A stretch of 34,715 nucleotides of DNA, taken from assembly GCA_016935075.1 (NCBI GenBank), contig JAFGRP010000230.1, positions 1 through 34,715 of the forward strand, in the 5' to 3' direction. Source of the DNA: Deltaproteobacteria bacterium. GTDB lineage: Bacteria; Desulfobacterota; Syntrophia; Syntrophales; UBA5619. A model generated the notes under the pieces. That model was not told the DNA's origin and ran no database searches. It was given only the letters and a program-made list of their open reading frames with translations. Within the stretch, counting starts at the first letter, position 1. Each line of letters opens with the position of its first letter. The translations under genes and the position numbers were made by a program. Positions 1,287 to 21,137 of this stretch are shown here, in pieces.

Positions 1287-2921
1287 CTACAGGACATACC
1301 GGATGCCGAGACGTTCCGCCGCGTCCCGGTCGGCGATCCCGAGCGCGTCGGACATGCCGATCGGCAACGATGTCGAGCGTCCGAGCGGTGCCACGATCTT
1401 CTTCAATTCCATATCGAAACTGACCACCACGTCGACGAGACGTTCGGCCACCTTCTCCGGATCGAGACGCCGGTAGAGGCGCGGGTCCTGTGAGGTAATC
1501 CCTTTCGGGCAGAGGCCGACGTTGCAGATGTTGCAGCGGTCCGCCTCCGAGCCGAGACAGCCGGCCGTCGCCTGCATGATGTACTTCCCCGCATGGATGC
1601 CGCTCGCCCCGAGCATGATCAGGGCAGCCGCATTGGCCGCCAGGTTCCCGTTTTTCCCCACGCCGCCGGCGGCGAAGATCGGGATCTCGTTCTGCTTGCC
1701 GACCCTCACCAGGTTGAGATAGGCGTCGCGGACGATGCCGGCGATGGGATGGCCCATGTGGTTCATCGAGACGTTGTAGGCCGCCCCCGTGCCGCCGTCC
1801 TCGCCGTCCATCGCCAGGGCCGCCGCATAGGGATTGCGCGTCAGATTGTTCATGACCGCAAGTGCCGTCGAGGTTGCAGAGATCTTCGGATAAACCGGCA
1901 CGCGGAAACCCCAGGCCATCGACATGGACTGGATCATCTTGGCAACCGCCTCCTCGATGGAATATTTCGTCTGATGGGTGGGCGGGCTGGGAAGATTGAT
2001 CCCCGTGGGCACGCCGCGGATCGCGGCGATCAGTTGGTTGACCTTGTACCACATCAGCAGTCCGCCGTCGCCCGGTTTCGCCCCCTGGCCGTACTTGATT
2101 TCGATGGCGCAGGGGTCCTCCTTCATCTCCGGCAGGGCGTGGATGATCTCATCCCACCCGAAGTAGCCGCTCGCGATCTGGAGAATGACGTACTTGAGAA
2201 ACCGCGAACGGAGGAGCCGGGGCGGGCAGCCGCCTTCCCCGGTGCAAAAGCGGACCCGCATCCCCAACTCCTCGTTCAGATAGGCCACCCCCATCTGGAG
2301 CCCCTCCCACATCGTGGGGGAAAGCGCCCCGAAGGACATGCTGCCCAGGATCAGCGGGTAGATCTCCCGAACCGGCGGAATCCGGCCGCCCTCGCGGGTG
2401 ACCCGGAGGGCCTCCTCCGGCGAGAGTACCCGGCCCAGCAGGGTTCGCAGCTCGAATTCGTGGCGTCCCGCGTCCAGGGCAGGGTCGGTCAGCATGGAGA
2501 TGCGGACGAACTTGATGTTGTCGAGGAGGCTTTCGCCTGCGTTGCGTCGACCGCCGCGTCGCCGCGGGATGCCTCCCTGGTTGATGTGAAAGCGGAGCTT
2601 GTCCGGTTCGTCATTGTGGATCGGCATGATCGCGTGGTTGGGGCAGACCATGTCGCACATCCCGCAACCGATACAGGCGTGGGCTGCGTCCGTCCGCTGG
2701 CGGATGCCGTGGTAGACGCCGAATAGATTGCTTGTTTTCTCCGTGAGCCCCAAAGGAACCTGCAGGACGCGCCGGCGATGGACGCCGAGTTCGATCGCCT
2801 GTACGGGACAGACCGCCGTACAGCGGCCGCAGAGGCTGCATTTTTCCTTGCTCCAGAGGATCTGCCAGGGCAGATCCTTCGTGCTCAGTGTAGACGGCTT
2901 AAGCTGTCCATCTGGTTCCAT
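1287..2921 (-). CDS. Archaeal-type glutamate synthase, FMN synthase domain with N-terminal ferredoxin domain
   Basis: A 544-residue protein with two [4Fe-4S] ferredoxin motifs at its N-terminus (C28, C31, C34, C38 and C83, C86, C89, C93), then the FMN-binding (beta/alpha)8 glutamate synthase domain (GltB2) from about residue 150. Near the C-terminus C455, C463, C466 and C471 lie in the region that holds the 3Fe-4S cluster in GltB proteins. It should transfer ammonia, released by the glutaminase subunit, to 2-oxoglutarate and reduce the adduct to glutamate in the cytoplasm. The start at 2921 follows AGGAGGT, and the gene overlaps the upstream glutaminase gene by 37 bp, which suggests translational coupling. 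Split glutamate synthases with a ferredoxin-bearing central subunit are known in archaea and some anaerobic bacteria. The subunit assignment is firm; the electron donor (NADPH through the partner, or ferredoxin) is inference. Confidence 0.93.
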   Translation of the reverse strand: MEPDGQLKPSTLSTKDLPWQILWSKEKCSLCGRCTAVCPVQAIELGVHRRRVLQVPLGLTEKTSNLFGVYHGIRQRTDAAHACIGCGMCDMVCPNHAIMPIHNDEPDKLRFHINQGGIPRRRGGRRNAGESLLDNIKFVRISMLTDPALDAGRHEFELRTLLGRVLSPEEALRVTREGGRIPPVREIYPLILGSMSFGALSPTMWEGLQMGVAYLNEELGMRVRFCTGEGGCPPRLLRSRFLKYVILQIASGYFGWDEIIHALPEMKEDPCAIEIKYGQGAKPGDGGLLMWYKVNQLIAAIRGVPTGINLPSPPTHQTKYSIEEAVAKMIQSMSMAWGFRVPVYPKISATSTALAVMNNLTRNPYAAALAMDGEDGGTGAAYNVSMNHMGHPIAGIVRDAYLNLVRVGKQNEIPIFAAGGVGKNGNLAANAAALIMLGASGIHAGKYIMQATAGCLGSEADRCNICNVGLCPKGITSQDPRLYRRLDPEKVAERLVDVVVSFDMELKKIVAPLGRSTSLPIGMSDALGIADRDAAERLGIRYVL

Positions 2922-4015
2922 CGCCCGACCTCCTGACGTTCCGGTCCCACAAAGACCGTATCATATTTCATCGGTTGAAAATCCCGGCTTTTGTCGCGCG
3001 CGGGGATCGCGGCATCCAGCCCGCACATCTCCGAGGAGAAGGCAAACATGCCGGGATTACCGCCCACCACGCCGGGACGGAGTTTTTTGCTGTCCTGCAG
3101 CATGAAGAGGGTTTTGTCGGGCAGACAGCCCATGACGCAGTTCGGCCCGTCGATGATCAGCGGCCGGCAGCTCTGCTTGACCATACGGAGCCAGGAACCG
3201 TTCGGATGGTTCTCCAGTTCGCCATCCTTGAGCGGTGTAATGATATGCTTGTACGTCTCGAGATCGAGATTCAGGTGCCGGATCGCGTAGTGGAGAATAT
3301 GGGTGAATACCTCGGAGTCCGACTGATATCCGACATAGCCCGGCTCCCTGCGCGACATGAGGAACTCCCGGATCGGCAGGAAGGCGGTGTTCTCGCCGTT
3401 GGTCATGGTGGCCATTCCCTGGATGAAAAAGGGATGGCAGGCATAGATGTTGATGGCATAGTTCGTATTCTGCCGACCCTGGGCCAGGATCGTCCGTGCC
3501 TGGAGTTCCTTGCGGTTCAGGCCGAGGTAGTCCGCGACGGCCATCGGGTCGCCGACCTCCTTGATCATGATCACGTCCGGCCAGAAACTGAAGACCATCA
3601 TCGATTCATCCTCCTCCCCCATCTTGCGGAGCTGGAGGCGGCACATCATCAGGCGGTGCTGGACCTCCTCTTCGGGCAGGTTCTCCCAATCGGGGGGATA
3701 TTCATAGACGCGGATCAGGTAATTGTCCCGCCGGGGCGTCCCCACCGGAGGGCGCTTCGCGGGGCGGAAAGAGAGTTTGTATTTCGTCATGAAATCCTTG
3801 TCCATCATGTACCGGTCAAGGGCCTTGATCCCCGTGTTGGAGAAAATTCCGGAGAGGATCGGCCCGCCCCGGAACTGCTCGAAATCACCGCCCAAATCGG
3901 TCATATAGAGCCCCACACCCGACCCGTCGTGACCCTCCTTCATCACGTCGAGGGCGCGGATCGCAACCATCGGGGACAGGGGATCCTTGCTGGTAATGGC
4001 AAACAATCTGCACAT
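2885..4015 (-). CDS. Glutamate synthase glutaminase domain (class II glutamine amidotransferase)
   Basis: A 376-residue class II (Ntn-type) glutamine amidotransferase, the free-standing equivalent of the GltB N-terminal domain. It should hydrolyse glutamine and pass ammonia to the synthase subunit encoded downstream. There are two in-frame ATG codons, at 4021 and 4015. I choose 4015 because it makes the protein begin Met-Cys-Arg-Leu-Phe, placing the catalytic cysteine at position 2 where Met removal exposes it, and because the AGGA Shine-Dalgarno is about 9 nt from this ATG but only 3 nt from the first. It is the first gene of the glutamate synthase operon and lies about 110 bp downstream of a sigma-54 promoter at 4125-4140. 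The family call is secure. Confidence 0.92.
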   Translation of the reverse strand: MCRLFAITSKDPLSPMVAIRALDVMKEGHDGSGVGLYMTDLGGDFEQFRGGPILSGIFSNTGIKALDRYMMDKDFMTKYKLSFRPAKRPPVGTPRRDNYLIRVYEYPPDWENLPEEEVQHRLMMCRLQLRKMGEEDESMMVFSFWPDVIMIKEVGDPMAVADYLGLNRKELQARTILAQGRQNTNYAINIYACHPFFIQGMATMTNGENTAFLPIREFLMSRREPGYVGYQSDSEVFTHILHYAIRHLNLDLETYKHIITPLKDGELENHPNGSWLRMVKQSCRPLIIDGPNCVMGCLPDKTLFMLQDSKKLRPGVVGGNPGMFAFSSEMCGLDAAIPARDKSRDFQPMKYDTVFVGPERQEVGRWNQMDSLSRLH

Positions 4016-4124
4016 GATCATCCATCCTTTCTATCATTCGTTGGAAACTGTAACGTTTTTTAAGGAGTCCGGGATCTTGCGAGACCGCAAACGCCTGTCC
4101 CGAAAAAGCCCGGGATAGTAATAT

Positions 4125-6146: not shown

Positions 6147-9100
6147 ATGGGAATCACGCGACGGAAATTTTTGCAGTATTCAGGCCTGACCGCAGGATCC
6201 ATTCTTTTGCCTTCCGGTATGGCCGCATCCTCGGAAAAAGTAAAGGCCTTCCCCCTGCATAAACCGATCAGGGAGGCAGCCACCATCTGCCCCTACTGTT
6301 CCTGCGGATGTGGATTGCTCATTGCCACGGGACCCGACGGTCACATCATCAATTCGGAGGGGGATCCCGACAATCCGGTCAACCGCGGGGCGCTCGATCC
6401 GAAATCTGTCTCTGTTCGCCAGCTTTCCCAGAGTCCGTTGCGCTTGAGAAAGCCTCTGTACCGGGCGCCGGGCAGCGACAAGTTCGAGGAAAAGGACTGG
6501 GAGTGGACGATCGCCGAAGTGGCCAAACGGATCAAAACAACCCGGGACGCCACCTTCCAGAAACAAAACGATAAAGGCGTTACGGTGAATCGCACCACGG
6601 GTATGGCCTTCATGGGCGGCGCCGCGAACAACAATGAGGAATGTTATCTGGCCTCCAAGTTGAGCCGCGCCCTGGGTCTGGTCTATCTTGAGCATCAGGC
6701 CCGTATCTGACACTCCGCCACGGTGGCCGGTCTGGCCGCAAGTTTTGGTCGTGGCGCGATGACCAATCACTGGATCGATGTGAAAAATGCCGATGTGATC
6801 CTGGCCGACGGTTCCAATTGCGCGGAAAATCACCCGGCATCGATGACCTGGATCAATAAGGCGAAGGATGACCGGGGGGCCAAGTTCATCGTGGTGGATC
6901 CCCGTTTCACCAGGACGGCCTCGCAGGCGGATCTTTACGTCTCCATCCGCAGCGGCACCGATATCGCCTTCTTCGGCGGGATGATGAAATACCTGATGGA
7001 CAAGCAATTGTTCCATAGGGAATACGTGGTTCATTATACCAATGCGGCCAATGTGATCGATCCCGGATTCAAAGGGCCCGCTGACCTGGATGGCCTGTTC
7101 TCGGGTTTCGTTGATGACGACGGCGACGGCTTCGGCAAGTATGATCGGGGCACCTGGAAGTACCAGACGGATCCCCAGGGAAAGCCCCTCCGGGACGAGA
7201 CCCTGAAAAATCGACAGTGCGTTTTTCAGGTCATGAAGCGTCACTACGCCCGGTACACGCTCAAAACGGTCTCCGACATTACAGGCTGTCCGCCGGAAAC
7301 GCTGGAGGCGGCCTATAAACTGTTCGCCACTACGGGGGCGAAGAACAAGTCCGGGACCATTCTTTATGCCATGGGGCAGACGCAGCATACCGTCGGATCT
7401 CAAAATGTACGCTGTATGGGCATGATCCAGCTGCTGCTGGGCAACATGGGGGTTCCGGGGGGCGGGGTGAATGCGCTGCGCGGCGAGTCCAACGTCCAGG
7501 GGTCGACCGACCAGGGCCTTCTGGCCCATCTCGTTCCCGGATACATGAGCATTCCAAGGGCGGGCGATCATCCCACGCTGGCCGCTTACCATGAGAAGGA
7601 AACCCCCAAGACAAGCTATTGGTCCAACAAACCCAAATTCATGGTCAGTCTTCTGAAGGCCTGGTGGGGGGATCATGCCACGGCGGAAAACCAGTTTGCC
7701 TATGACTACCTGCCCAAGGTGGAGAGCCCGGCCAAACATTACTGGATAAGCCTGTTTGAGGAGATGTATGCCGGGAAGATCGAGGGATTGTGGCTCCTGG
7801 GACAGAACCCGGCGGTCAGCGGACCCAATTCCCGCCTGGAGCGGGAGGCCTTGAAGAAGCTCAAATGGATGGTTGTTCAGGAGATATTCGACACCGAAAC
7901 CTGCTCGTTCTGGCGCGCCCCGGACGTCATACCCGCCGACATCCGGACGGAGGTCTTTATCCTGCCGGCGGCGGACGCCATGGAGAAAGAGGGAAGCATC
8001 GGCACCAGCGGCCGGCTGATTCAGTGGCGGTCCAAGGTGGCCGATCCCCCCGGTATGGCGCTGCCGGATCATCAGATCCTCAATCTTATCGCCCTCAAAT
8101 TGAAGGAGCTCTATGCCGCCGCCCCAGGGCCCTTTGCCGATCCCATCATTCATCTCAACTGGGATTACGGCAAGGAGTTGAGCGTGGAGAAGGTGGCCCG
8201 GGAGCTCAATGGGTATGCGACTGCCGTCATTAAAGACCCCCAGGGCAATATCCTCGCCAACAAGGGCGACATCCTCAAAACGTTCGCCCTGTTGCAGGCC
8301 GACGGGACCACCGCATGCGGCTGCTGGATCTACGGGGGATATTTTGCACCGGCCGATGACGGGACGGGAAAGATGATGCCGGCAACCAAACGCCGGGGGC
8401 AGAAAGACCCGGGCGGTCTGGGGACTTACCCTTTCTGGGCCTTTGCCTGGCCGGCCAACCGGCGCATCATTTACAACCGCTGTTCCGCCGATCCCAACGG
8501 CAAGCCCTGGAGCGAGGAGAAAAAACTGATCTGGTGGGACGAGGCCCTGAAGAAATGGACGGGGTACGACGTTCCCGATTTTGCCCCCACCAAGGCCCCC
8601 TCGGATCCGGGCGGGAAAGATCCCTTTATCATGCGCATCGACGGGAGAGGAGGTCTCTTTTCACCCCTTAATGAAGGGCCGTTTCCGGAACACTATGAAC
8701 CCATGGAAACGCCGGTCGCGAAAAATCCCTTCTCCGCCCGTCTGCACAATCCGGCCGTTCAGGTCTGGAAGACGGATCAGGGCAAGGCGATCGGGGATAA
8801 CTGGGGAAAGACGGACAAGTACCCCATCGTGGCCACCACGTACCGGGTTGTCGAACACTGGCAGGCCGGCGGGATGTCGCGATGGCTGGACTGGCTGACC
8901 GAATGCCAGCCCCAGATGTTTATCGAGCTGAGCAAGGAACTGGCGGCCGAGAAGGGGATTCTAAACGGCGACCGCGTCAGGGTCAGCTCCGCCCGGGGGG
9001 AAATTTCGGCGGTAGCGGTCGTGACAGCCCGCTTCAAACCGTTCAAGGTAGCGGGTAAAGCCGTTCATCAAATCGGAATGCCCTGGCATTTCGGATGGGG

Positions 9101-9209
9101 GGGTCTGGCGACCGGGGATGTGGCCAACGATCTGACGCCCCATGTGGGGGATGCCAATACGACGATTCCGGAATACAAGGCATTCCTGGTGGATATTCGT
9201 AAGGCTTAG
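6147..9209 (+). CDS. fdnG: Formate dehydrogenase-N catalytic subunit, selenocysteine-containing
   Basis: One 1020-residue gene interrupted by an in-frame TGA at 6708-6710, read as selenocysteine 188. The context around it (QARI-U-HSATVA, then FGRGAMTNHW) matches the FdnG active site, where Sec ligates the Mo or W of the bis-pyranopterin cofactor. A twin-arginine signal (RRKFLQ at residues 5-10) predicts Tat export, so the enzyme faces the periplasm and oxidises formate to CO2. The [4Fe-4S] motif has C48, C51 and C55 plus an extra C53. The position of the usual fourth ligand (GALCPKG in E. coli FdnG) reads GALDPKS with D84. SD GGAGGG lies 10 nt before the ATG. fdnH follows after 12 bp and fdnI after that. 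Gene callers would split this gene at the TGA into 6147-6710 and 6723-9209. Confidence 0.96.
6708..6755 (+). promoter_or_regulatory. UGA selenocysteine codon and bSECIS hairpin
   Basis: Directly after the TGA (6708-6710) the mRNA can fold with an outer stem CGCCACG (6716-6722) / CGTGGCG (6749-6755) and an apical stem GGCC (6725-6728) / GGCC (6734-6737) closing the loop GGTCT (6729-6733). The loop GGUCU and its distance of 18 nt from the UGA are the same as I recall for the E. coli fdhF/fdnG elements recognised by SelB. Confidence 0.85.
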
Positions 9210-11182: not shown

Positions 11183-12361
11183 TCATGTCTTCGCCCGGGG
11201 AGCAGAGGCCAGCGGCAGCGTGAAGCTAAAAAGGCTTCCCTCGCCGGGGGCGGACTTCACCTCCACCCTGCCGCCATATCCTTCCACGATGCGCTTGACG
11301 AGAGGCAATCCCAGACCGGTTCCCCGACGCTCCATCTTCTTTGCCTCGACCGTCCGAAAAAATTCGTTGAAAATAAGCGGCAGATCCTGCGGCGAGATGC
11401 CGATTCCCGTGTCTTCAACGTTCCCGATTGCGTGTGTCTCATCGTGGTCGACCGTTACATGGATCCGGCCTCCGCTCCGGGTATATTTGATGGCGTTGGA
11501 TATGAGGTTGGTCCAAAGATGTTGCATATGATCGGGGTGGACCTCTACCCTGGGGTTCTGACGGATGGTCAGCGTCAGAGAAAGTCCCTTTCCCTCGGCC
11601 TCCGCTTTGAGGGAAGGCAGGATCTTTTCCAATTCGTCTCCGAGCTGCACCATGGACCGATTCTCCGCGGACATTTCCTGCCTTGCGGTAGCCAGATTGA
11701 TCAGATTGTCGACGAGATTCAACAGATCCTCTGAACGGTCCAAGGCATGCTGGATCATCTCCTTCCATTTTTCCGGGGGAACGTACCCTTTCAGCAGAAT
11801 GAGCAGGAAGCTCTGAAGGGCCGTGAGCGGGGCACGGAATTCATGCGCAACCGTAAGCCGGAAAGCGGCCGGGGCCAGGAAATCCTTGTCGAAAAGCTCG
11901 GAGGTTTCCAGTTCCCCCTTGGTCACGGACCAAAGGCGGGAGACGTCCTGCTCGAAAATCTGAAGCCTTTTCAGTTCCACGGCTCTCGTGCGCCATTCCA
12001 TGGCACGGTCGATCCGGAGCGAAAGGAGTTCGGGAATGATGGGCAGGGGAATGAGATCATCTGCGCCGGATTTAATCCATTGCAGTGCTCTATTCCATGT
12101 CGAGCGCCCGCTGAGCAGGATGCATACCCTTTCAGCATCATTCATCGTCAGGTTCGCATGAAGATTGGTCACGGAATGATCCGGAAGCATCTCGACATCC
12201 ATGAGGATGATGTCGATGTCCTTGCCGGTGGGGGTACATGGCCGCTCCGGCAGGCTATCGGTCACCTGAACGGAAAAGCGACCCGGGTCCAAGGCCTGAC
12301 GGCAGGCGGCCTGGAGGTCGCTGTTTCCGCTGATGATGAGGATGATGCCCTTGTTTTGCAT
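11183..12361 (-). CDS. Cytoplasmic histidine kinase with degenerate N-terminal receiver
   Basis: A 392-residue protein with no membrane segment. Residues 1-125 have a receiver fold by pattern, with the aspartate D55 (IILMDVEML), but the acidic pair is replaced (LIISGNSD) and the conserved lysine is missing (LIPLP), so it is likely a pseudo-receiver. HisKA follows with H173 in the canonical HEFRAP, then the HATPase_c domain (NLISNAIKY, DTGIGI, GTGLGL). It is the last gene of the three-kinase operon, 7 bp after the preceding stop and with only a weak SD, so probably translationally coupled. Its kinase half resembles the kinase encoded at 14357-15505, including a shared KGYVPP motif after the phosphohistidine helix, so the two look like paralogues. 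Confidence 0.88.
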   Translation of the reverse strand: MQNKGIILIISGNSDLQAACRQALDPGRFSVQVTDSLPERPCTPTGKDIDIILMDVEMLPDHSVTNLHANLTMNDAERVCILLSGRSTWNRALQWIKSGADDLIPLPIIPELLSLRIDRAMEWRTRAVELKRLQIFEQDVSRLWSVTKGELETSELFDKDFLAPAAFRLTVAHEFRAPLTALQSFLLILLKGYVPPEKWKEMIQHALDRSEDLLNLVDNLINLATARQEMSAENRSMVQLGDELEKILPSLKAEAEGKGLSLTLTIRQNPRVEVHPDHMQHLWTNLISNAIKYTRSGGRIHVTVDHDETHAIGNVEDTGIGISPQDLPLIFNEFFRTVEAKKMERRGTGLGLPLVKRIVEGYGGRVEVKSAPGEGSLFSFTLPLASAPRAKT

Positions 12362-12368
12362 AGTCCGT

Positions 12369-14357
12369 TTACTGAATCAAGGCACTGCGGGTATCGGCCT
12401 CTGTCCCGGGGGATGCTTCCGTCTTGGGCGGAATCATGGGCAAGGTAACGGTAAAGGTCGTTCCCTTGCCGGCCTGACTGGACACCTGTATCTGACCGCG
12501 ATGCATCTTGATGATGCCGTAGACAATCGATAAACCCAGCCCCGTTCCTTTTCCGAGCGGTTTGGTCGTAAAGAAGGGGGTAAACAGCTTTCCCAGGTTC
12601 TCCTCTGCAATGCCGCGTCCCGTATCCGCAATGTCGATCTCCACTGCCGGGCCTTTGGAGAACCGGGTGGTCATGGTGATCGCGCCACCTTCGGGCATGG
12701 CGTCGGCCGCATTATTGAGCAGGTTGACAAACACCTGCATCAATTGGGCCGGATCCGCCTGGATGAGCGGCAAATCAGGAACGAAGCACCGTTTGATCTG
12801 CACACGTTCAAAATTCGGCTGGCTGCCGACGCTTTGGATTGCCTGTTCCAGGATCTGATGCAGATCGCTCTCCTGGGTCAGCATTTCCTGTTCACGGGCA
12901 AAATTCAACAGGTCGGCGACGATCCGCTTGCACCGGTGGGTCGCATCGATGATCATTTTGAAATCTTCCCGCCTGGTGCCGTCTTCCCCGGCTTCCCGGT
13001 AGAGGGTTTCCGAGTACAGCATGATGGTGCCGAGGGGGTTGTTGATCTCGTGGGCGACCCCGGCGGCCAGCTGTCCCATGGAGGCGAGTTTTTCCTTATG
13101 GACCAGTTTCTTCTGGATGCTGTCGAGCGTCTCCACCATGCTGTTAAAGGAGTGGCCCAGCGTCGCCAGTTCCCCTTTCCCGGATACGTTCACCCGAACG
13201 CTCATGTCCCCCTGGGAGAGGCGGCGATTCGATTCCACGAGGTTTTTGATCGGCTTGATGAACAACCGGGCGATCGGCACTGCGATCACCCCCGCCAGCA
13301 GAATGCAGATGAGCGCAATCAGACCGACCCGATTATTGAAGTCGTGAATCAGGGTTAAAAACGATGATTCCCGGGCGCCCACGTAGAGGCTGCCCACCAC
13401 GCGACCCCGGCTGTCCGCGAGGGGGGTATAGCGGGTGATAAACCACTCGTTCACCACATAGGCGCGTCCCACATAATCGCGACCCTCGGAGAGAACGACA
13501 TTGCGGACCGCCTGCGATATCCGGGTGCCCACGGCGCGTTTTCCCTGCTCGGTCATCACGTTGGTGGCCACACGCAAGTCACCGAAGAATATGGTCACCG
13601 TGTCGATCCTTGCCACCTCCTTGATACGGTCCACCAAGGTGAAATCGTTGTTGAACAGATAGACCGACAAAACCGCACCGATGATCTGCCGATTGGGATT
13701 GTGCAGGGGATACACCCCGGTCAGAGCGAGACCGGCCGTCCCTTCCCGCGGATCAAAAGGCTCCGGGGCGGCCAGAGGCGTTTCAACAAGGGGAATGAAG
13801 GCCTGATGATCCAAACCGACCTGGGCCAAAAGTTCCTTTGATATGACTTCTGTGGCGGTCTGCGGCTTGCCTGTCTCCAGAACTTCCTGGACGATCGGCA
13901 GCTTTTTCCACCCGCCCTGCAGGAGTGGGGTTGAGAGCTCCCCCGTTTGACTGAGAACCCGGCCGACGACCGTACGCCCCCTTTTATCGAGGATGGCGAT
14001 GAAATGGGTGCCGCCGAGGGCCAGCACGGAGATTTTATTGGTAATCTGCTGATCGATGATTCTGATGGCTTCAGATTCTCCCCGGGCGGCGGCTGACAGA
14101 CCATTGATGATCCATGTATCCAGGGATAAGCGATGGCTGATCGCCTCAATTTCGTCCAGTTTGATCTGGTAAAAGGCCTTGGCCAGGTCCATGTCCCGGG
14201 CCACGAGATCCGCTTCCGCCTTGGAGAGATATTCACTGATCACCCGGGACGTAACCAGTGTGTTCAGGCCGATGGTGAGTCCGGCCACCAGGGCGAAGGA
14301 GGCGATCAGCACTGTTTGCAATCGGCCTCCAAGAATAATGCCCATCCATCGACGCAT
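12369..14357 (-). CDS. Membrane-bound sensor histidine kinase (Cache-like sensor, HAMP)
   Basis: A 662-residue sensor kinase. Transmembrane helix 1 is at about 12-34 and helix 2 at about 343-366; the roughly 300 residues between them form a periplasmic double-Cache-like sensor. A HAMP domain (365-415), HisKA with H436 (GVAHEINNPL) and HATPase_c (NLLNNAADA, DTGRGI, GTGLGL) follow. The HEINNPLG form is typical of kinases that pair with sigma-54-type regulators, but no such response regulator is in this cluster. I take the ATG at 14357, whose A overlaps the upstream stop (TGATG), rather than the TTG one codon earlier; GGAG lies 8 nt upstream. The ligand is unknown. Its place in the formate dehydrogenase neighbourhood suggests a periplasmic metabolite or redox cue. 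Confidence 0.9.
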   Translation of the reverse strand: MRRWMGIILGGRLQTVLIASFALVAGLTIGLNTLVTSRVISEYLSKAEADLVARDMDLAKAFYQIKLDEIEAISHRLSLDTWIINGLSAAARGESEAIRIIDQQITNKISVLALGGTHFIAILDKRGRTVVGRVLSQTGELSTPLLQGGWKKLPIVQEVLETGKPQTATEVISKELLAQVGLDHQAFIPLVETPLAAPEPFDPREGTAGLALTGVYPLHNPNRQIIGAVLSVYLFNNDFTLVDRIKEVARIDTVTIFFGDLRVATNVMTEQGKRAVGTRISQAVRNVVLSEGRDYVGRAYVVNEWFITRYTPLADSRGRVVGSLYVGARESSFLTLIHDFNNRVGLIALICILLAGVIAVPIARLFIKPIKNLVESNRRLSQGDMSVRVNVSGKGELATLGHSFNSMVETLDSIQKKLVHKEKLASMGQLAAGVAHEINNPLGTIMLYSETLYREAGEDGTRREDFKMIIDATHRCKRIVADLLNFAREQEMLTQESDLHQILEQAIQSVGSQPNFERVQIKRCFVPDLPLIQADPAQLMQVFVNLLNNAADAMPEGGAITMTTRFSKGPAVEIDIADTGRGIAEENLGKLFTPFFTTKPLGKGTGLGLSIVYGIIKMHRGQIQVSSQAGKGTTFTVTLPMIPPKTEASPGTEADTRSALIQ

Positions 14358-15505
14358 CAATCTGCTCCGGTCAATGCCGCTGTATGTGGGAGAATAAAAC
14401 GAAACGCACTGCCCAAGCCCGGGGTGGAATCGATTTCAAGCGTGCCGCCGTAAAGAGAGACGATCTGCTGTACAATGCACAATCCAAGGCCTGTTCCGGT
14501 CTCCTGCATGGACCTGGCTTCCTTCGTCCGGTAGAACTCCTCGAAAATCCGGGAAATTTCATCAGAGGGAATTCCTATGCCGGTATCGGTCACCGTCCCG
14601 ATGATTTTCTTTTCCAACGCATTTTCCTGAAGTGTGAGGGTGACCCGGCCGGCCGGCCGGGTATAGCGGATGGCGTTGCCGAGCAGTTGCGCCCAGAGTG
14701 CCTGAAGGTATTCTCTGTTTCCCGAAATAACCGGGTGGTTCATTCGCTCCACCTTCACCGTCAGGCCGCGTTCCGCAATCTCCTTTTTGAATGAGGCGAG
14801 GGCAGCTTCGAGCATGTCCGATAAGGAGACGGGTTCCGTTTTCAAGCCTCTTATGTTCTCTTTGAGACGCGACAGGAGGAGCAGGTCATCGAGGATGGTC
14901 AGCAATTCCCCGGCCCGTTCTTCGACTTGTTGCAGAAACGTAACCTGTTCCGCCGGCGGGACATATCCTTTGCGGATGAGTTGTATGGTGTTCAGGAGAA
15001 CGGCCACCGGCGCCCGGAGGGTGTGCACCATGGTCATCATAAAACGGCCTTGAATGACACCGATCTTCTCCATTTCGGCTCTACACTTTGCAAGTCCGGA
15101 GAGTTTCTCCTCCAGGTCTTTTACCCTTCGGGCCTCGCGGTGCAGTCTCTGCCGATCTATCTCCCGATTGATGACGTGCAGCAATAATTCATGTGTAAAA
15201 GGCTTGGCAATAAAATCATGCGCCCCCTCGCGAATGGCCTGAACGGCCAATTCAATGGTCGCATAGCCGGTAATGATGATGCCGATGACATCGGGGGCTA
15301 TTTTTCGCGCCTGCTGCATCATCTCCAGCCCGCTCATGCCGGGCATCATGGCATCGACCAGTAAAACATCAAAAGACCCTTGACGGAGTTTGTGCAGACC
15401 ATCAGGCCCGTTTTCGGCCACATCCACCTCCAGACCTGAAGAGGTGAGGGCACGCCGGCATCCTTCACGAATTCCCAACTCGTCATCCACCACAAGCACT
15501 CGCAT
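14357..15505 (-). CDS. Receiver-histidine kinase hybrid with unusual H-box
   Basis: A 382-residue soluble protein. An intact N-terminal receiver (VVDDE at 6-9 region, D51, K101) is followed by a short coiled segment, HisKA and HATPase_c (QLLGNAIRY, DTGIGI, GTGLGL). The phospho-accepting H161 is followed by threonine (HTLRAP) where nearly all kinases have Glu or Asp (HELRTP), a position needed for phosphotransfer in well-studied kinases. I choose ATG 15505 over a TTG at 15523 because AGGAG lies at a good distance. It is the first gene of the kinase operon, behind a TTGACA-17-TATAGA promoter. A receiver at the N-terminus means it may itself be controlled by phosphorylation. Confidence 0.88.
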   Translation of the reverse strand: MRVLVVDDELGIREGCRRALTSSGLEVDVAENGPDGLHKLRQGSFDVLLVDAMMPGMSGLEMMQQARKIAPDVIGIIITGYATIELAVQAIREGAHDFIAKPFTHELLLHVINREIDRQRLHREARRVKDLEEKLSGLAKCRAEMEKIGVIQGRFMMTMVHTLRAPVAVLLNTIQLIRKGYVPPAEQVTFLQQVEERAGELLTILDDLLLLSRLKENIRGLKTEPVSLSDMLEAALASFKKEIAERGLTVKVERMNHPVISGNREYLQALWAQLLGNAIRYTRPAGRVTLTLQENALEKKIIGTVTDTGIGIPSDEISRIFEEFYRTKEARSMQETGTGLGLCIVQQIVSLYGGTLEIDSTPGLGSAFRFILPHTAALTGAD

Positions 15506-15546
15506 ATTTCCTGCTCCTGCCAAGGTCTCTGATTCGGTATTTTATA

Positions 15547-15575: not shown

Positions 15576-15641
15576 ATGAAAGGTCTTTCATTACGGCTAC
15601 TTTATCACCGGGACATGGGCGCCGGCCGCCCCGAAAAAAGT

Positions 15642-15671
15642 TTGAAACGGACAGCAAATATTCGCTATGAA
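15642..15671 (+). promoter_or_regulatory. Possible sigma-70 promoter of fdhE
   Basis: TTGAAA (15642-15647) and TATGAA (15666-15671) are 18 bp apart, about 80 bp upstream of the chosen fdhE start. The match is moderate. Confidence 0.4.
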
Positions 15672-15752
15672 AAAATGTCGATTCAGTCTATGCTTGCTGC
15701 TATCCTTTTCCCCGATGGGGGGCCATTGTCCATGGTTTGTTCAGGAGATCAT

Positions 15753-16577
15753 ATGAGGTTCAGTCCGCAAGACCAAAACATACTGGAGCATTTGTGTCGG
15801 GCCGGGGCAGCGCATCCCCATTTGGATACGTTGTTCCATTTCTATGAGCAACTCTTTCAGATTCAATTTGCCTTCAAGGCCCGGCTGAGAGAGGATCGTC
15901 ATCTCGGATATCTGGAGGAGAAGGACATCGATCCCGAACGCTTGGCATCCGGAATCCCCCAGGTCAGCTTCGATGACCTCCGGATGGAGGCATCCCCATG
16001 GATCGATCTGTATGGAGACATTGCGGCGCTTTTGATCAGGGATACGGAATGCTTGGCCCCCGATAACCGCGAGCCGCAACCGGAGACAATCCTGGCCCAG
16101 GCGCTTGAGATCTTCACCAGCAAGGTCCCGCTGGTCGGCTCGGGCCAACCGGCCGATGTGACCAGAACGGCGAGCGGTCTTGTTTTGGCCCCTTATCTGC
16201 AACTGGCCTGCGAGCATCTGATGCCGCGCATCACCCAGAGTGCCTGGCATCGGGGGCATTGCCCGGTTTGCGGAGGCGCGCCGTCTTTTGCCGTCGTGCA
16301 TGCGGAGCCGGACTTCCGCACCCTGTTGTGCTCGCGCTGCAACGGTGAATGGCGTTTCCGTCGGATGGGGTGCCCTTTCTGCATGGAGAGAGATCACCAA
16401 ACCTATTATCCCACGGAGAGCGGGGATTACCGACTCTATGTTTGTGAAGCCTGTCGCCGTTACTTGAAATCCCTTGACATGCAGGAGTCCGATTCAGAGC
16501 GGTGCCTGCCCGTAGAGACCTTGTCGACCGTCTCAATGGATCTCGCCGCCCGGGAAAAAGGATGGCTGTTTTTTTGA
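15753..16577 (+). CDS. fdhE: Formate dehydrogenase accessory protein FdhE
   Basis: A 274-residue cytoplasmic maturation factor for formate dehydrogenases. The C-terminal third carries four CxxC pairs (CPVC, CSRC, CPFC, CEAC) that bind iron in a rubredoxin-like way in FdhE, which interacts with the catalytic subunit before Tat export. Start chosen at ATG 15753, where AGGAG lies 5 nt upstream and the protein begins MRFSPQDQ; the frame is open further upstream to 15576 but without an SD or similarity I recognise. It is separated from fdnGHI by the oppositely oriented kinase operon, so it has its own promoter. It is convergent with the next gene. Confidence 0.92.
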   Translation: MRFSPQDQNILEHLCRAGAAHPHLDTLFHFYEQLFQIQFAFKARLREDRHLGYLEEKDIDPERLASGIPQVSFDDLRMEASPWIDLYGDIAALLIRDTECLAPDNREPQPETILAQALEIFTSKVPLVGSGQPADVTRTASGLVLAPYLQLACEHLMPRITQSAWHRGHCPVCGGAPSFAVVHAEPDFRTLLCSRCNGEWRFRRMGCPFCMERDHQTYYPTESGDYRLYVCEACRRYLKSLDMQESDSERCLPVETLSTVSMDLAAREKGWLFF

Positions 16578-16634: not shown

Positions 16635-19271
16635 TCAACGGTCCGGTTTTCCCGCATCCAGATAGCAGACCGCTCGCTGGCTCTGGGGGTCGGCCACGAC
16701 CCGGGCATAGAGCCCGCCCGTTGCCGCCGGCAGGTCGAAGACGCGAATGATCTCCCGGAACCGTTCCGCATCGGGAAGGAGGTCCGTCAGAATATTCGGA
16801 AGGCTCTCGAAAATCCGCCGATTGAATTCCGCCTCCGGATCGCTCGGATAGACGGGCAGATAGATGATCTTCGCCTCAACGAGGTCGAGGAAGAAATGGG
16901 TCCCGTAGGAAACCTCCGGCGCCTGCCCCGCCTCTTCCCGCGCCATTTCCACCAGGACGGTCGTATGGTTGATGTCGGCATAGGTCACGTTCACGCCGAG
17001 ATTGATATTGCTGCTCCCCCACCGCCCCGGCCCCATCATCAGAATACGCCCCCGGGCCACATCCGGATGCTCGTTGATCCTCCCGACGACGCGGCCAAGC
17101 GATTTTTTCGCCCCCGTTGAGTCGATGGCGCCGTATCGCTCCGGATCGATGTAGAGGATGTAGCGTATCAGCGGCGTGACCCCGCCGCTGATCGTGCGAA
17201 CCGACCGGAAAAGGATATGCTCGGGAGGGATCCCCTCGGGGAGCTGCACCCGATCCACAGCCCCGGGGAGACGCATCGGGCGGCACTGGAGGAGGTTGAT
17301 TCGGACGCGGTCTTCGGCGCACACTGCGGCGGTGAATTCCGTGTCGATCGGCTGGCCGTAGGCCTTCTCCAGGCGGGTCAGCATCGCTCCGATGCAGCGG
17401 ACGAAGCCGGTTTTCGCAAGAAGGAGGTTGAAGGTCAGCACCAGATCGTCCCGGGTGGCTTCAAGGCGGCTTGTCCAGGGATCCGCAGGGTAGCCGTCCT
17501 TCATCAGGGAAACGAGGAGGTGGAGATTCGGGTAGTCGCGGCCTTCCAGAACTTCCGCAAGCGGCCTGGTCGCGAAGGCATCGTCTTCCAGATCGATGAG
17601 ATCGACCTCCCATTGGGAGTACTTGGCGATCTTGGCGCCGGATTCGGGCCGCAGCTGGGGATGGCTCACGGCAATCATCCGGGGGTAATCGTTTCCGACC
17701 CGGTTCACCGCTCGGGTTCCCAGACCGAAGACCAGGCGGATCATGCCCCGGGCGGGATCGATCCGGTCCGTCCAGGCATAGGGGTTCCTGGAGAAGGCCA
17801 CGCCGGCCAGGCTCGGAAAAAAGAACTGTTTGTAAGGTGTTCCGGAAACGCGCTGGACGAGGATCGCCATCTGCTCATCGCTCTCGCCCAGATTCCGGGC
17901 GCGGCGGTAGGCCATGGCGTCCGGGTTCAGCGCGCTCGCATAAACGAGCTTCACGGCGCGAAGAAACGCCTCCAGACGCTCCTCCGACGAGCCTTGGTTC
18001 GCGCAGTATTCGCTGCGGTACTTCCCGGCGAATGCGTTTCCGAAGCTGTCCTCCAGAAGGCTGGACGAGCGGGCGATGATCGGCGCCTGGCCGAAGTAGG
18101 AGAGCATGTCCCGGAACTGCTCCATAATCGTCGGCGAAAAACTCCCCGCGAGGAAGCGCTTTTCCACCTCCGCAAACTCCTCGTGAGAGATGTTCGTGGC
18201 GCGCGAGAGCTGGAGACGGAGGCGGAACAGGTCGTTGTTCACCAGAAAAGTGAAAAAAACATCCGAACCGATGTAGAAGGAATCGTGCGCCTCGAGAATC
18301 TCTGCAAAGTCTATCCCGCCCGGTTCCGCGAGCAGTATCCGCCGGGCGATGAGCATCCCGGCCGCCTTCCCGCCGATACGCCCCGAGCCGATCAGGCGGT
18401 CGCGAATGCCGAACAGATCGTCGATCGTCACGTACCGGTCCACAAGGCGGTTGAACTCGGGATGGGTCCCGATCATCATCCGCGAGAGTTCCTGCTTGAG
18501 GGCTGCGATCTCCGGCGTCTTCTCGTCGGGCATCATTCCCGTCTCCTGGTACCGCATCAGCCGGCGGTAGACACTCTCCCAGGGCGCAAGCGATTTTGCC
18601 CTCCTCTGCAGAGGATTCCGGCTCGCCGACACCGATACCGCAGCGGCATCCCCGCTCCCGAAAACCGGAAGCCAGTCGTCGTCCGACATCGCATGCGGAA
18701 GGAACATCTGCGGGGAATAGCGGTCCCAGACCTTGAGCGGATGGAGATACATCGTCTCCTTGACCTGATAGACATCCAGAAGAACCTGCGTCGTGTCGCG
18801 GATGCGGGCAACGGCGCCGTGGCTGTGTCGGCCCCGGGCGAGGGCGAAGTAGGCGACCGTGTCCAGCTCGAACAGAAAGGGACAGGTTACCTGGAAGAAG
18901 TTTGCGAGGAGTTCATCGGTGGCCCATTCGACGACAAGCGCCGAGAGGCTGTCAAAGACATAGAAGACCTCCCGGCCTTCCGCTTCGATGATCTGGTGGA
19001 GCATGCTGCTGAAGGAATCAAAACCGGTCTGGGGATTGATTTCAATCGTGGCGAGCCCGTTCAGCGGCGGCAGGATCGGCGGATGCGGGGCGAATCGGAA
19101 GTAGACGCACCTCCGCCCTGCCCGGATCGCCTGCCGGGCGAAGGGCTCCGCGAAGTGGCGGTAGTCGTCCAGGCGGTCCACCTGCCAGACAACATTGTCG
19201 CCCAGCCGGAGACCCTGCAGCACCTGATCCAGCGCCGCAAGACCGCTGGTCACCATTCCGGATGGCATCAT
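16635..19271 (-). CDS. Pseudo-KaiC domain fused to PEP/pyruvate-binding (PPDK_N-like) domain
   Basis: An 878-residue protein. Residues about 1-200 follow the KaiC/RecA-like ATPase pattern (GLAALDQVLQGLRLGD at the start; a Walker-B-like strand VFYVFDSLSAL at 102-112), but the P-loop is gone: the segment after G24 has no GxxxxGK[ST]. From about residue 290 there is a pyruvate phosphate dikinase/PEP synthase ATP-grasp domain with GGKAAG (300-305) and RSSS...GNAFAGKYRS (401-419). The phosphohistidine swivel and PEP barrel domains of PpsA are not recognisable, so it is not a complete PEP synthase. The function is unknown; a regulatory or phosphoryl-transfer role is possible. It follows glnB on the same strand after 156 bp, so may belong to the amt-glnB transcript. 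An ATG one codon later (19268) has better SD spacing. Confidence 0.75.
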   Translation of the reverse strand: MMPSGMVTSGLAALDQVLQGLRLGDNVVWQVDRLDDYRHFAEPFARQAIRAGRRCVYFRFAPHPPILPPLNGLATIEINPQTGFDSFSSMLHQIIEAEGREVFYVFDSLSALVVEWATDELLANFFQVTCPFLFELDTVAYFALARGRHSHGAVARIRDTTQVLLDVYQVKETMYLHPLKVWDRYSPQMFLPHAMSDDDWLPVFGSGDAAAVSVSASRNPLQRRAKSLAPWESVYRRLMRYQETGMMPDEKTPEIAALKQELSRMMIGTHPEFNRLVDRYVTIDDLFGIRDRLIGSGRIGGKAAGMLIARRILLAEPGGIDFAEILEAHDSFYIGSDVFFTFLVNNDLFRLRLQLSRATNISHEEFAEVEKRFLAGSFSPTIMEQFRDMLSYFGQAPIIARSSSLLEDSFGNAFAGKYRSEYCANQGSSEERLEAFLRAVKLVYASALNPDAMAYRRARNLGESDEQMAILVQRVSGTPYKQFFFPSLAGVAFSRNPYAWTDRIDPARGMIRLVFGLGTRAVNRVGNDYPRMIAVSHPQLRPESGAKIAKYSQWEVDLIDLEDDAFATRPLAEVLEGRDYPNLHLLVSLMKDGYPADPWTSRLEATRDDLVLTFNLLLAKTGFVRCIGAMLTRLEKAYGQPIDTEFTAAVCAEDRVRINLLQCRPMRLPGAVDRVQLPEGIPPEHILFRSVRTISGGVTPLIRYILYIDPERYGAIDSTGAKKSLGRVVGRINEHPDVARGRILMMGPGRWGSSNINLGVNVTYADINHTTVLVEMAREEAGQAPEVSYGTHFFLDLVEAKIIYLPVYPSDPEAEFNRRIFESLPNILTDLLPDAERFREIIRVFDLPAATGGLYARVVADPQSQRAVCYLDAGKPDR

Positions 19272-19427
19272 CCCGTCCTGTCTGAGAAAAAAGTGTTCCC
19301 CTGACCCCGTTTTCTGTCACTTCAAAATGCGCTCGATGAATTATGATATCACATTTTCGTTTCATTTTTATCTTTTTCCCCTTTTTGTCAGGAGAAACGA
19401 CCGTTGACCCCCATTGCGGGTTCCGCC

Positions 19428-19775
19428 TCAGCCGATGGCGACCCCGCCCCGTTCGCCGGAGCTGATCCGGACGCAATCGGCCAGATCCAGGACGAAGATC
19501 TTCCCGTCGCCGACCTTGCCGTCGCCGGTCCGGGCCCCCTTGTTGATGGCGGCGATGGTTGGCTCGACAAAATCTTCATTCACGGCGATGTCGAGCCGGA
19601 CTTTCCTCAGGAGGCCGCCGACCTCCTTCGATCCGCGATAGATTTCGGTATACCCCTTCTGTCTTCCCTGCCCGAGGACGTTGGAGACGGTCATCAGATT
19701 CACCTCCACCGTTTCGAGCGCCTGTTTGACCTCCTCCAGTTTGTGGGGCTGGATGATCGCGACGATGTATTTCAT
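19428..19775 (-). CDS. PII nitrogen-regulatory protein (GlnB/GlnK family)
   Basis: A 115-residue trimeric signal protein that senses ATP/ADP and 2-oxoglutarate and, by its linkage to amt, probably gates the ammonium channel (GlnK role). Start chosen at ATG 19775 in the cluster ATG-ATC-ATG because AGGAGGT is 7 nt away; the upstream ATG would be 1 nt from it. The T-loop keeps Y46 (TEIYRG) but the usual uridylylation residue Y51 is glutamate (GSKEV). The B-loop reads TGDGKVGDGK, two residues longer than in E. coli GlnB. K40, K58 and the GDGK motif are kept. It lies 12 bp after amt, so is co-transcribed from the sigma-54 promoter. Loss of Y51 implies regulation by ligand binding rather than UMPylation. 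Confidence 0.93.
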   Translation of the reverse strand: MKYIVAIIQPHKLEEVKQALETVEVNLMTVSNVLGQGRQKGYTEIYRGSKEVGGLLRKVRLDIAVNEDFVEPTIAAINKGARTGDGKVGDGKIFVLDLADCVRISSGERGGVAIG

Positions 19776-19787
19776 GATCATTACCTC

Positions 19788-21023
19788 CTATTCCACGACC
19801 GTGTAGGCCGATTCGCTCTGTTGGGTCAGGTCGAGGCCGACAATCTCGTCCTGCTTTTCCACCCGCATCCCGACGAGGGCGTCCACGGCCTTGAAGATGA
19901 TCCAGGTCATCGCCGCGGCGAAGAGCGGTACGACAATGACCAGCATGAGCTGGACCAGAAAAAGCCTGGCATTGCCGAAGAAGAGCCCGTCCGCCCCGGC
20001 GGCGTTGACCGCCTTCTCCGCGAAGAACCCCGTTGCCAGGGTCCCCCAGATCCCGCCCACCCCATGAACGCCGAAGGCATCGAGGGAGTCGTCGTAGCCA
20101 AACCGGGATTTGAGCATGACCACGGCGATGTAGCAGAACAGGGCGACCAGAATGCCGATGAAGATGGCGTTCATGGGGTTGACGAATCCGCAGGCCGGCG
20201 TTATGGCCACGAGCCCACCGACGACCCCCGTCGCTGCGCCGAGGATGGTCGGCGCCCCGTGGTGCCACCATTCGATGAGCGCCCAGGAGAGACCCGCGGC
20301 AGCCGCGGCGATATGCGTCGTCACAAAGGCGTTGGCGGCCAATTCGTTCGCCCCCAGGGCGCTTCCTGCATTGAAGCCGAACCATCCGAACCAGAGCATC
20401 GCCGCGCCGAGAACGGTGAAGGGGAGGTTATGGGGCCGGAAGGGTTGCTGCGCGTAACCGCACCGCTGTCCCAGGAGGATCGCCAGGGTCAATGCCGAGA
20501 TCCCCGAACTGACGTGGACGACGATCCCGCCTGCGAAATCCAGCGCCCCCAGGTTCCGGAGCCAGCCGCCGGTTCCCCAGACCCAGTGCGCCAGCGGATC
20601 ATAGACCAGCGTCGCCCACAGGAGGGTGAAGATCAGAAAGGCAGAAAATTTCATCCGCTCTGCAAACGCCCCGATGATCAACGCCGGCGTGATGACGGCG
20701 AACATCGCCTGAAAGATCATGAAGGCCTGATGGGGAATCGTCGCCGCATAATCGGCATTCGGCCGCCCGCCGACAAAGTTAAGCCCGGCCCACTTCAGGC
20801 TGCCGATGATCCCGAGCCCCGTGTCCGGCCCGAAGGCCAGCGAATAGCCGAACAGGACCCACTGCAGGCTGATGACGCAGGTGATGATGAAACACTGCAT
20901 CAAGATGGACAAGACATTCTTTCTCCGCACCAGGCCGCCGTAAAAGAAGGCGAGGCCGGGAATCGTCATGCCCAGGACCAGGGCCGATGCGATCAATACC
21001 CATGCCGTATCTCCCGTATTCAT
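19788..21023 (-). CDS. amt: Ammonium transporter
   Basis: A 411-residue Amt/MEP/Rh channel with about eleven hydrophobic helices. Family marks include FFYGGLVRRKN near the N-terminus, YDPLAHWVWG, FGWFGFNAGS and the pore histidine segment FGVHGVGGIWG. It imports ammonium across the inner membrane. Start chosen at ATG 21023 (MNTGDTAWV), with AAGGAGG 9 nt upstream; the open frame extends to 21098 without an SD. It is followed at once by glnB, the conserved Amt-PII pairing. It is preceded by a sigma-54 promoter (21138-21153) and the paired dyads at 21237-21275, so is expected to rise under nitrogen limitation. No C-terminal extension beyond the usual cytoplasmic tail is seen. Confidence 0.95.
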   Translation of the reverse strand: MNTGDTAWVLIASALVLGMTIPGLAFFYGGLVRRKNVLSILMQCFIITCVISLQWVLFGYSLAFGPDTGLGIIGSLKWAGLNFVGGRPNADYAATIPHQAFMIFQAMFAVITPALIIGAFAERMKFSAFLIFTLLWATLVYDPLAHWVWGTGGWLRNLGALDFAGGIVVHVSSGISALTLAILLGQRCGYAQQPFRPHNLPFTVLGAAMLWFGWFGFNAGSALGANELAANAFVTTHIAAAAAGLSWALIEWWHHGAPTILGAATGVVGGLVAITPACGFVNPMNAIFIGILVALFCYIAVVMLKSRFGYDDSLDAFGVHGVGGIWGTLATGFFAEKAVNAAGADGLFFGNARLFLVQLMLVIVVPLFAAAMTWIIFKAVDALVGMRVEKQDEIVGLDLTQQSESAYTVVE

Positions 21024-21137
21024 GATGGCAAACCTCCTTAATTTTATGCTTTCAGGGTCTTCCCCGCCTGAACCGCCGAGCTCCGAATCCGCAGGCAACG
21101 GCGCCGGCAGGCTGCGATCCCGTTCGGGAGGGAATAA

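Follow-up and report, generated by a model that had tools for sequence, protein, structure and literature searches.

A protein family combining a pseudo-KaiC domain with a PPDK-type ATP-grasp domain is encoded near genes of nitrogen assimilation

Introduction

Several previously described proteins resemble parts of the protein that is analysed here. Rifampin phosphotransferase (RPH) and the HpeHI, CreHI and PpsAB systems have a histidine carrier, a swivel domain that is recognised as such and a site for a small molecule (PMC4844700, PMC12167813). VadK of Mycobacterium tuberculosis is described as a regulatory kinase that descends from PPDK and has an ATP-binding and a phosphohistidine domain (His422) (PMC13400623). 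The iKaiC proteins (MEDS, DUF835) consist of inactivated KaiC-like cores that are fused to signalling modules (PMC5847659). In the literature that we searched, we found neither a fusion of a KaiC-like domain to a PPDK-type ATP-grasp domain nor a paper on the pseudo-KaiC/PPDK_N family or its link to glutamate dehydrogenase (GDH). Here, we analyse a gene of this family in a stretch of 34,715 nucleotides, which is referred to below as the window. The pseudo-KaiC domain and the PPDK_N domain of the encoded protein are of known kinds, and together with an undescribed conserved tail they occur in a combination for which we found no description.

Results

Gene and domain layout

The protein of 878 amino acids and its homologues can be aligned over nearly their full length, and for this reason we regard the open reading frame as a real gene (Table 1). 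A Pfam scan of the complete protein returned PPDK_N as the sole match, leaving the rest without a family, and NCBIfam yielded partial matches to PEP synthases and their relatives that remained far below the cutoff. The AlphaFold model, for which 49 sequences were used, reached a pLDDT of 84 and a pTM of 0.86. In our judgement, an architecture of a pseudo-KaiC domain, a PPDK_N ATP-grasp domain and a conserved tail can be considered almost certain.

Table 1. Features of the family gene and of selected neighbours in the window. Residue numbers refer to the protein of 878 amino acids.
Feature	Coordinates	Strand	Basis or remark
Ferredoxin-type glutamate synthase subunit, not adjacent	1287..2921	-	Pfam Glu_synthase, 5.9e-53
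Tentative glutamine-amidotransferase part of glutamate synthase, not adjacent to the family gene	2885..4021	-	Cluster profile match
Whole gene, 878 aa	16635..19271	-	ATG start; exact ORF
C-terminal domain without known Pfam family, residues 680-878	16638..17234	-	Conservation, Pfam search
Codon of His792, candidate phosphoacceptor	16896..16898	-	Invariant in 132/132 aligned homologues
PPDK_N ATP-grasp domain, residues 298-667	17271..18380	-	Pfam PF01326, E 1.4e-45
Linker, mostly helical, residues 206-297	18381..18656	-	AlphaFold model
Pseudo-KaiC (RecA-like) domain without Walker A, residues 1-205	18657..19271	-	Profile comparison, motif scan, model
Intergenic gap between glnB and the gene, 156 bp	19272..19427	-
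glnB (PII protein)	19428..19781	-	Pfam P-II, 1.2e-25
amt (ammonium transporter)	19788..21098	-	Pfam Ammonium_transp, 1.1e-127

The ATP-grasp domain

An earlier note, made from the DNA letters of the window, had recognised the N-terminal landmarks of PPDK behind the first domain, and these coincide with the PF01326 match and its invariant site residues. K302, R401, E645, Q662 and R664 are unchanged in 132 of 132 non-identical sequences from three layers of the family. They belong to the motifs GGK, RSSS, D-x-EFT and LQCRP, which presumably correspond to the ATP-site residues of PPDK; Ye et al. reportedly studied these PPDK residues in 2001 as the catalytic site of the Clostridium symbiosum enzyme (cited in PMC13400623). 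Since the site residues are invariant and the motifs match those of PPDK, the domain is expected to bind ATP and probably carries out phosphotransfer chemistry. The PDB sequence search with this domain produced PEP-synthase-type matches only.

The N-terminal domain

The first 200 or so residues had been read in the earlier note as a KaiC/RecA fold with a lost P-loop, and this reading is upheld as far as sequence comparison can judge. KaiC and RadA proteins of related genomes match a profile of 45 N-domains at residues 7-115 (HHalign probability 93%, E 2.8e-7). Upon a rerun with a smaller KaiC set, the N-domain profile scored 39.8, as compared to at most 22.8 in 30 column-shuffled controls and 13.0 for the reversed control, and the profiles of the grasp and C-terminal domains scored 12 against this set. 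Individual N-domains matched KaiC, MEDS, PAXNEB/Elp4 and DUF7090 weakly; three of these, namely KaiC, MEDS and Elp4, belong to the RecA/KaiC-like proteins. The Walker A pattern GxxxxGK[ST] was present in the first 120 residues of none of the 111 full-length homologues, which is why we call the domain pseudo-KaiC. The position of Walker A is occupied by GDNVVWQVDxL, and a Walker-B-like strand (FYVFDSLSAL) is retained. In the AlphaFold model, residues 12-202 show an alternating alpha/beta order that is compatible with a RecA core. Searching the PDB sequences with the N-domain gave chance-level matches to RPA32 and a weak match to PH0284 (E 0.74).

A pseudo-KaiC domain lacking the P-loop was also noted in two transcription-regulator-like proteins, one encoded directly beside a family gene (L056:4413-5795, minus strand; with HTH_3 and cupin domains by Pfam) and one close to a family gene (L039:6111-7451, minus strand; with HTH and cupin domains). 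The P-loop-less domain is common to these HTH-cupin proteins and the N-domain of the family (HHalign 99.7%).

The C-terminal domain and His792

The last 200 or so residues form a conserved and undescribed domain, the key residues of which are invariant down to about 28% identity. Its motifs are GPGRWG, E775 and S-x-G-(T/S)-H-F-F, the latter containing H792, and R750, W751, E775, S788, G790 and H792 are invariant throughout the three layers (132 sequences). For residues 680-878 neither a Pfam match nor a PDB sequence match was obtained. A comparison with 48 PEP-utilizers sequences by HHalign gave a probability of 0.1%, which did not exceed the shuffled and reversed controls. A PEP/pyruvate-binding barrel had no Pfam match either, and no more than 211 residues remain after the grasp domain. 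The view of the earlier note that a phosphohistidine or PEP-binding domain cannot be recognised thus agrees with the Pfam and HHalign searches, the C-terminal third included, and it follows that the protein alone cannot be a PEP synthase. The assignment of the C-terminal domain as a phosphohistidine domain by sequence, tried with two PEP-utilizers profiles (probability 0.1%, within the controls), is unproven.

In the model, the local order is a strand (772-776), a loop, a helix (792-799) of which His792 is the first residue, and a further strand (803-807). PEP synthase likewise has a strand-loop-His-helix-strand order around its phosphohistidine. A C-terminal domain of the phosphohistidine type is suggested only by the predicted order of secondary structure and by where His792 lies in it. 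Because the profile comparison with PEP-utilizers was negative, we put forward the role of His792 as a phosphate acceptor as a hypothesis, with the chances for and against it evenly balanced. The earlier note had concluded that the protein cannot complete the PEP synthase reaction alone. This stands for PEP synthase, but it may not hold for phosphotransfer as a whole, since the C-terminal domain is conserved and its invariant His792 is predicted as the first residue of a helix that follows a beta strand, where a phosphoacceptor would sit.

The earlier note had also raised the possibility of a free-standing phosphohistidine domain elsewhere in the genome. None was found in the assembly, which is about 91% complete: all three PEP-utilizers matches are in long frames, of 515, 773 and 1430 amino acids. 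The frame of 515 amino acids is located at a contig edge and has an enzyme-I-like motif. The frame of 773 amino acids combines PPDK_N with PEP-utilizers, so that the protein studied here is not needed as the PEP synthase of the cell. The 1430-codon frame (G000:C25:14470-15762, plus strand) contains PPDK_N and a divergent PEP-utilizers domain, and represents a further PPDK-type fusion.

Family layers and distribution

A scan of reference genomes revealed at least 584 confirmed relatives. The best 80 of these derive from Deltaproteobacteria/Thermodesulfobacteriota, Chloroflexota, Omnitrophota, Lentisphaerae, Actinomycetota, Methanosarcinales and others, and nearly all of these 80 belong to metagenome-assembled genomes. 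Within the phylum, 79 of the 297 sampled genomes carry a match. The pseudo-KaiC domain is kept in close (about 55-87% identity) and mid (about 36-48%) relatives. Members of a third layer, designated the N-less class, have a different N-terminus, which in most of them spans about 140-200 amino acids and has no Pfam match, and the most distant layer (about 28% identity) consists of proteins of about 1000 amino acids, the N-terminus of which is receiver-like (Response_reg, weak DUF5752). The swapping of N-terminal modules on a constant core of grasp and C-terminal domains points to regulatory input, and from these sequences it suggests that the swapped module would serve as a sensor.

Two loci have an unusual composition. 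At L185:5542-8766 (minus strand), a family member carries an added C-terminal nucleotidyltransferase domain (NTP_transf_2, E 2.4e-9) and GDH matches are present on either side. At L063:5551-11011, two adjacent family members, one close and one 39% identical, are convergent and flanked by GDH and NrpR genes.

Genomic neighbourhood

The position of the gene after amt-glnB was known from the earlier note; Pfam confirms both neighbours, which are encoded on the same strand and separated from the gene by 156 bp. In locus L004, which encodes an orthologue with 87% identity, amt-glnB is likewise located upstream of the family gene, and the gene-proximal half of the gap is similar to its counterpart there. 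The gap contains no terminator-like site and one promoter-like site, which corresponds to chance frequency. Co-transcription of the gene with amt-glnB is unproven. Of the two genes in the window that are labelled as parts of glutamate synthase, the amidotransferase part bears a tentative label, there being no Pfam match for it. The GDH gene of the source genome is on a different contig from the family gene.

The window has further features of note. A plus-strand frame at 6147-9209 encodes a formate dehydrogenase-like molybdopterin oxidoreductase that is split by an in-frame TGA at residue 188 (ARIUHSA), where the TGA probably encodes selenocysteine. An FdhE-like gene is found at 15576-16577, and beyond it three consecutive histidine-kinase genes occupy 11183-15523 on the minus strand, two of them coding for hybrid kinases with receiver domains and one for a kinase with a Cache sensor.

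The link to GDH and ammonium assimilation, of which the earlier note gave only a hint, emerges from a survey of homologous loci. For the counts, only loci extending at least 4 kb to either side of the gene were used (n = 71). A GDH gene is near the family gene in 48 of these 71 loci (25/39 close, 11/19 mid, 9/10 N-less and 3/3 distant), and at least one of the listed nitrogen genes is near it in 60 of the 71, in every class. By comparison, nitrogen genes were found in none of 20 arbitrarily placed regions of equal size. The neighbour clusters of the close class include GDH, parts of glutamate synthase, NrpR, glutamine synthetase, Amt and PII, as well as NAD synthetase and HisF/HisH. The profiles used to recognise neighbours were derived from these same neighbours, and some representatives were checked by Pfam; the labels GlnA, NadE and HisF/HisH come from reading the sequences. 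Where GDH lies within 100 bp of the family gene, both are on the same strand in 20 of 22 cases. Gene order and orientation vary between loci, which means that the association with GDH has been kept through rearrangement, and at some loci of relatives a GDH neighbour is absent.

At the genome level, GDH was called with Pfam PF00208 at E 1e-50, a family that also covers leucine, phenylalanine and valine dehydrogenases. By this measure GDH is present in all 79 genomes of the phylum with the gene, versus 82 of the 218 without it (one-sided Fisher P 6.6e-27, without phylogenetic correction; the carriers belong to 32 families). There is hardly any doubt, in our judgement, that the family is linked to nitrogen assimilation. 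Since the family is encoded repeatedly beside GDH, it probably directs the way in which anaerobic microbes assimilate ammonium. Gene neighbourhood indicates a shared function and not a direct action on GDH, and that GDH itself is the direct target seems possible but rather unlikely.

Discussion

What the analysis shows is the architecture, the residue conservation, the loss of Walker A, the exchange of N-terminal modules and the genomic association with GDH and other nitrogen genes. A regulatory role of the family appears somewhat probable to us. As a more specific reading, we tentatively favour, at slightly less than even confidence, a sensor-controlled ATP-grasp phosphotransferase or switch for ammonium and glutamate metabolism that has His792 as its likely acceptor and is not a PEP synthase. 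The N-terminal module, which is KaiC-like without a P-loop here and helical or receiver-like in relatives, would sense a signal or bind a partner and thereby control the PPDK-type ATP-grasp domain. The latter would spend ATP to phosphorylate the invariant His792, and the phosphohistidine state, or phosphate relayed from it, would adjust ammonium assimilation, most plausibly GDH. We infer an active grasp domain, His792 as acceptor, the N-module as sensor and GDH as target. A bolder version of this proposal, namely an undescribed class of nitrogen regulators made up of PPDK-type ATP-grasp phosphotransferases that have interchangeable sensors and phosphorylate GDH (or PII or glutamate synthase) via a new phosphohistidine domain, must be called doubtful.

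The family might instead consist of metabolic enzymes, in which an ATP-grasp kinase or ligase acts on a small molecule of glutamate or ammonium metabolism and the C-terminal domain provides the substrate site with a catalytic His/Arg. The characterised PPDK_N proteins considered here, such as RPH and HpeHI, are mostly enzymes with small-molecule substrates (PMC4844700, PMC12167813), the polar residues R750, E775, S788 and H792 are strictly invariant, and GDH is always encoded in the same genome (79/79). Swapped N-modules of the pseudo-KaiC and receiver-like kinds are more typical of regulators, however, and a separate domain for a small substrate is not evident, so that we consider this alternative unlikely, if of some weight. 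The association with PII, NrpR and GDH genes, together with the failure to detect a phosphohistidine family, would also fit an ATP/AMP energy-charge sensor, the grasp domain of which binds nucleotide and changes shape without phosphotransfer, tuning GDH or GS/GOGAT by binding. The invariance of catalytic-type residues beyond the nucleotide-binding ones, including His792, makes this quite improbable.

A split system, in which the phosphorylated histidine resides on a separate protein (a free-standing phosphohistidine domain or PTS enzyme I), has precedents in HpeHI, CreHI and PpsAB, where the grasp domain is separate from the swivel and substrate part (PMC12167813), and the genome contains an enzyme-I-like frame (C90). 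Yet none of the PEP-utilizers domains found in the assembly lies on a short frame or close to the gene, and the neighbouring genes that were identified do not code for a swivel domain; we consider such a system very unlikely. Finally, the absence of PEP-binding and recognised His domains could be taken to indicate a decayed, functionless PEP synthase. This explanation is contradicted by the motif conservation across the family, with at least 584 relatives sharing strictly conserved motifs, and the genome has its separate PPDK_N and PEP-utilizers frame of 773 amino acids; its probability is negligible.

If the bolder version of the favoured reading is correct, an engine taken over from PEP synthase would control ammonium assimilation in anaerobic bacteria and archaea. 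To our knowledge, the post-translational control of GDH in anaerobes and archaea is poorly understood, and a family of hundreds of proteins that is usually encoded near GDH or other nitrogen genes, and has the build of a sensor-controlled phosphotransferase, represents a directly testable candidate for it. The family would join the small number of examples of a PPDK-type ATP-grasp domain being reused for regulation, and it would give pseudo-KaiC domains a new partner.

Like PEP synthase and PPDK (PF01326), the protein has a grasp domain with conserved nucleotide-site residues that is directly followed by a domain with a conserved histidine; unlike these enzymes, it lacks the PEP-utilizers and TIM-barrel PEP domains, its C-terminal domain is new and a pseudo-KaiC N-domain has been added. 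With rifampin phosphotransferase and HpeHI/CreHI/PpsAB it would share the reuse of a PPDK_N grasp domain for another acceptor, but it differs from them in lacking a sequence-recognised swivel domain or small-molecule site (PMC4844700, PMC12167813). The RecA/KaiC-like core is shared with iKaiC and Elp4/PAXNEB and is regarded as inactivated in iKaiC, the reported members of which, unlike our protein, are archaeal signalling fusions (PMC5847659). The family would resemble VadK, which is itself phosphorylated on a histidine, as a PPDK descendant turned to metabolic control, with the difference that VadK is tied to the methylcitrate cycle and the present family to nitrogen (PMC13400623).
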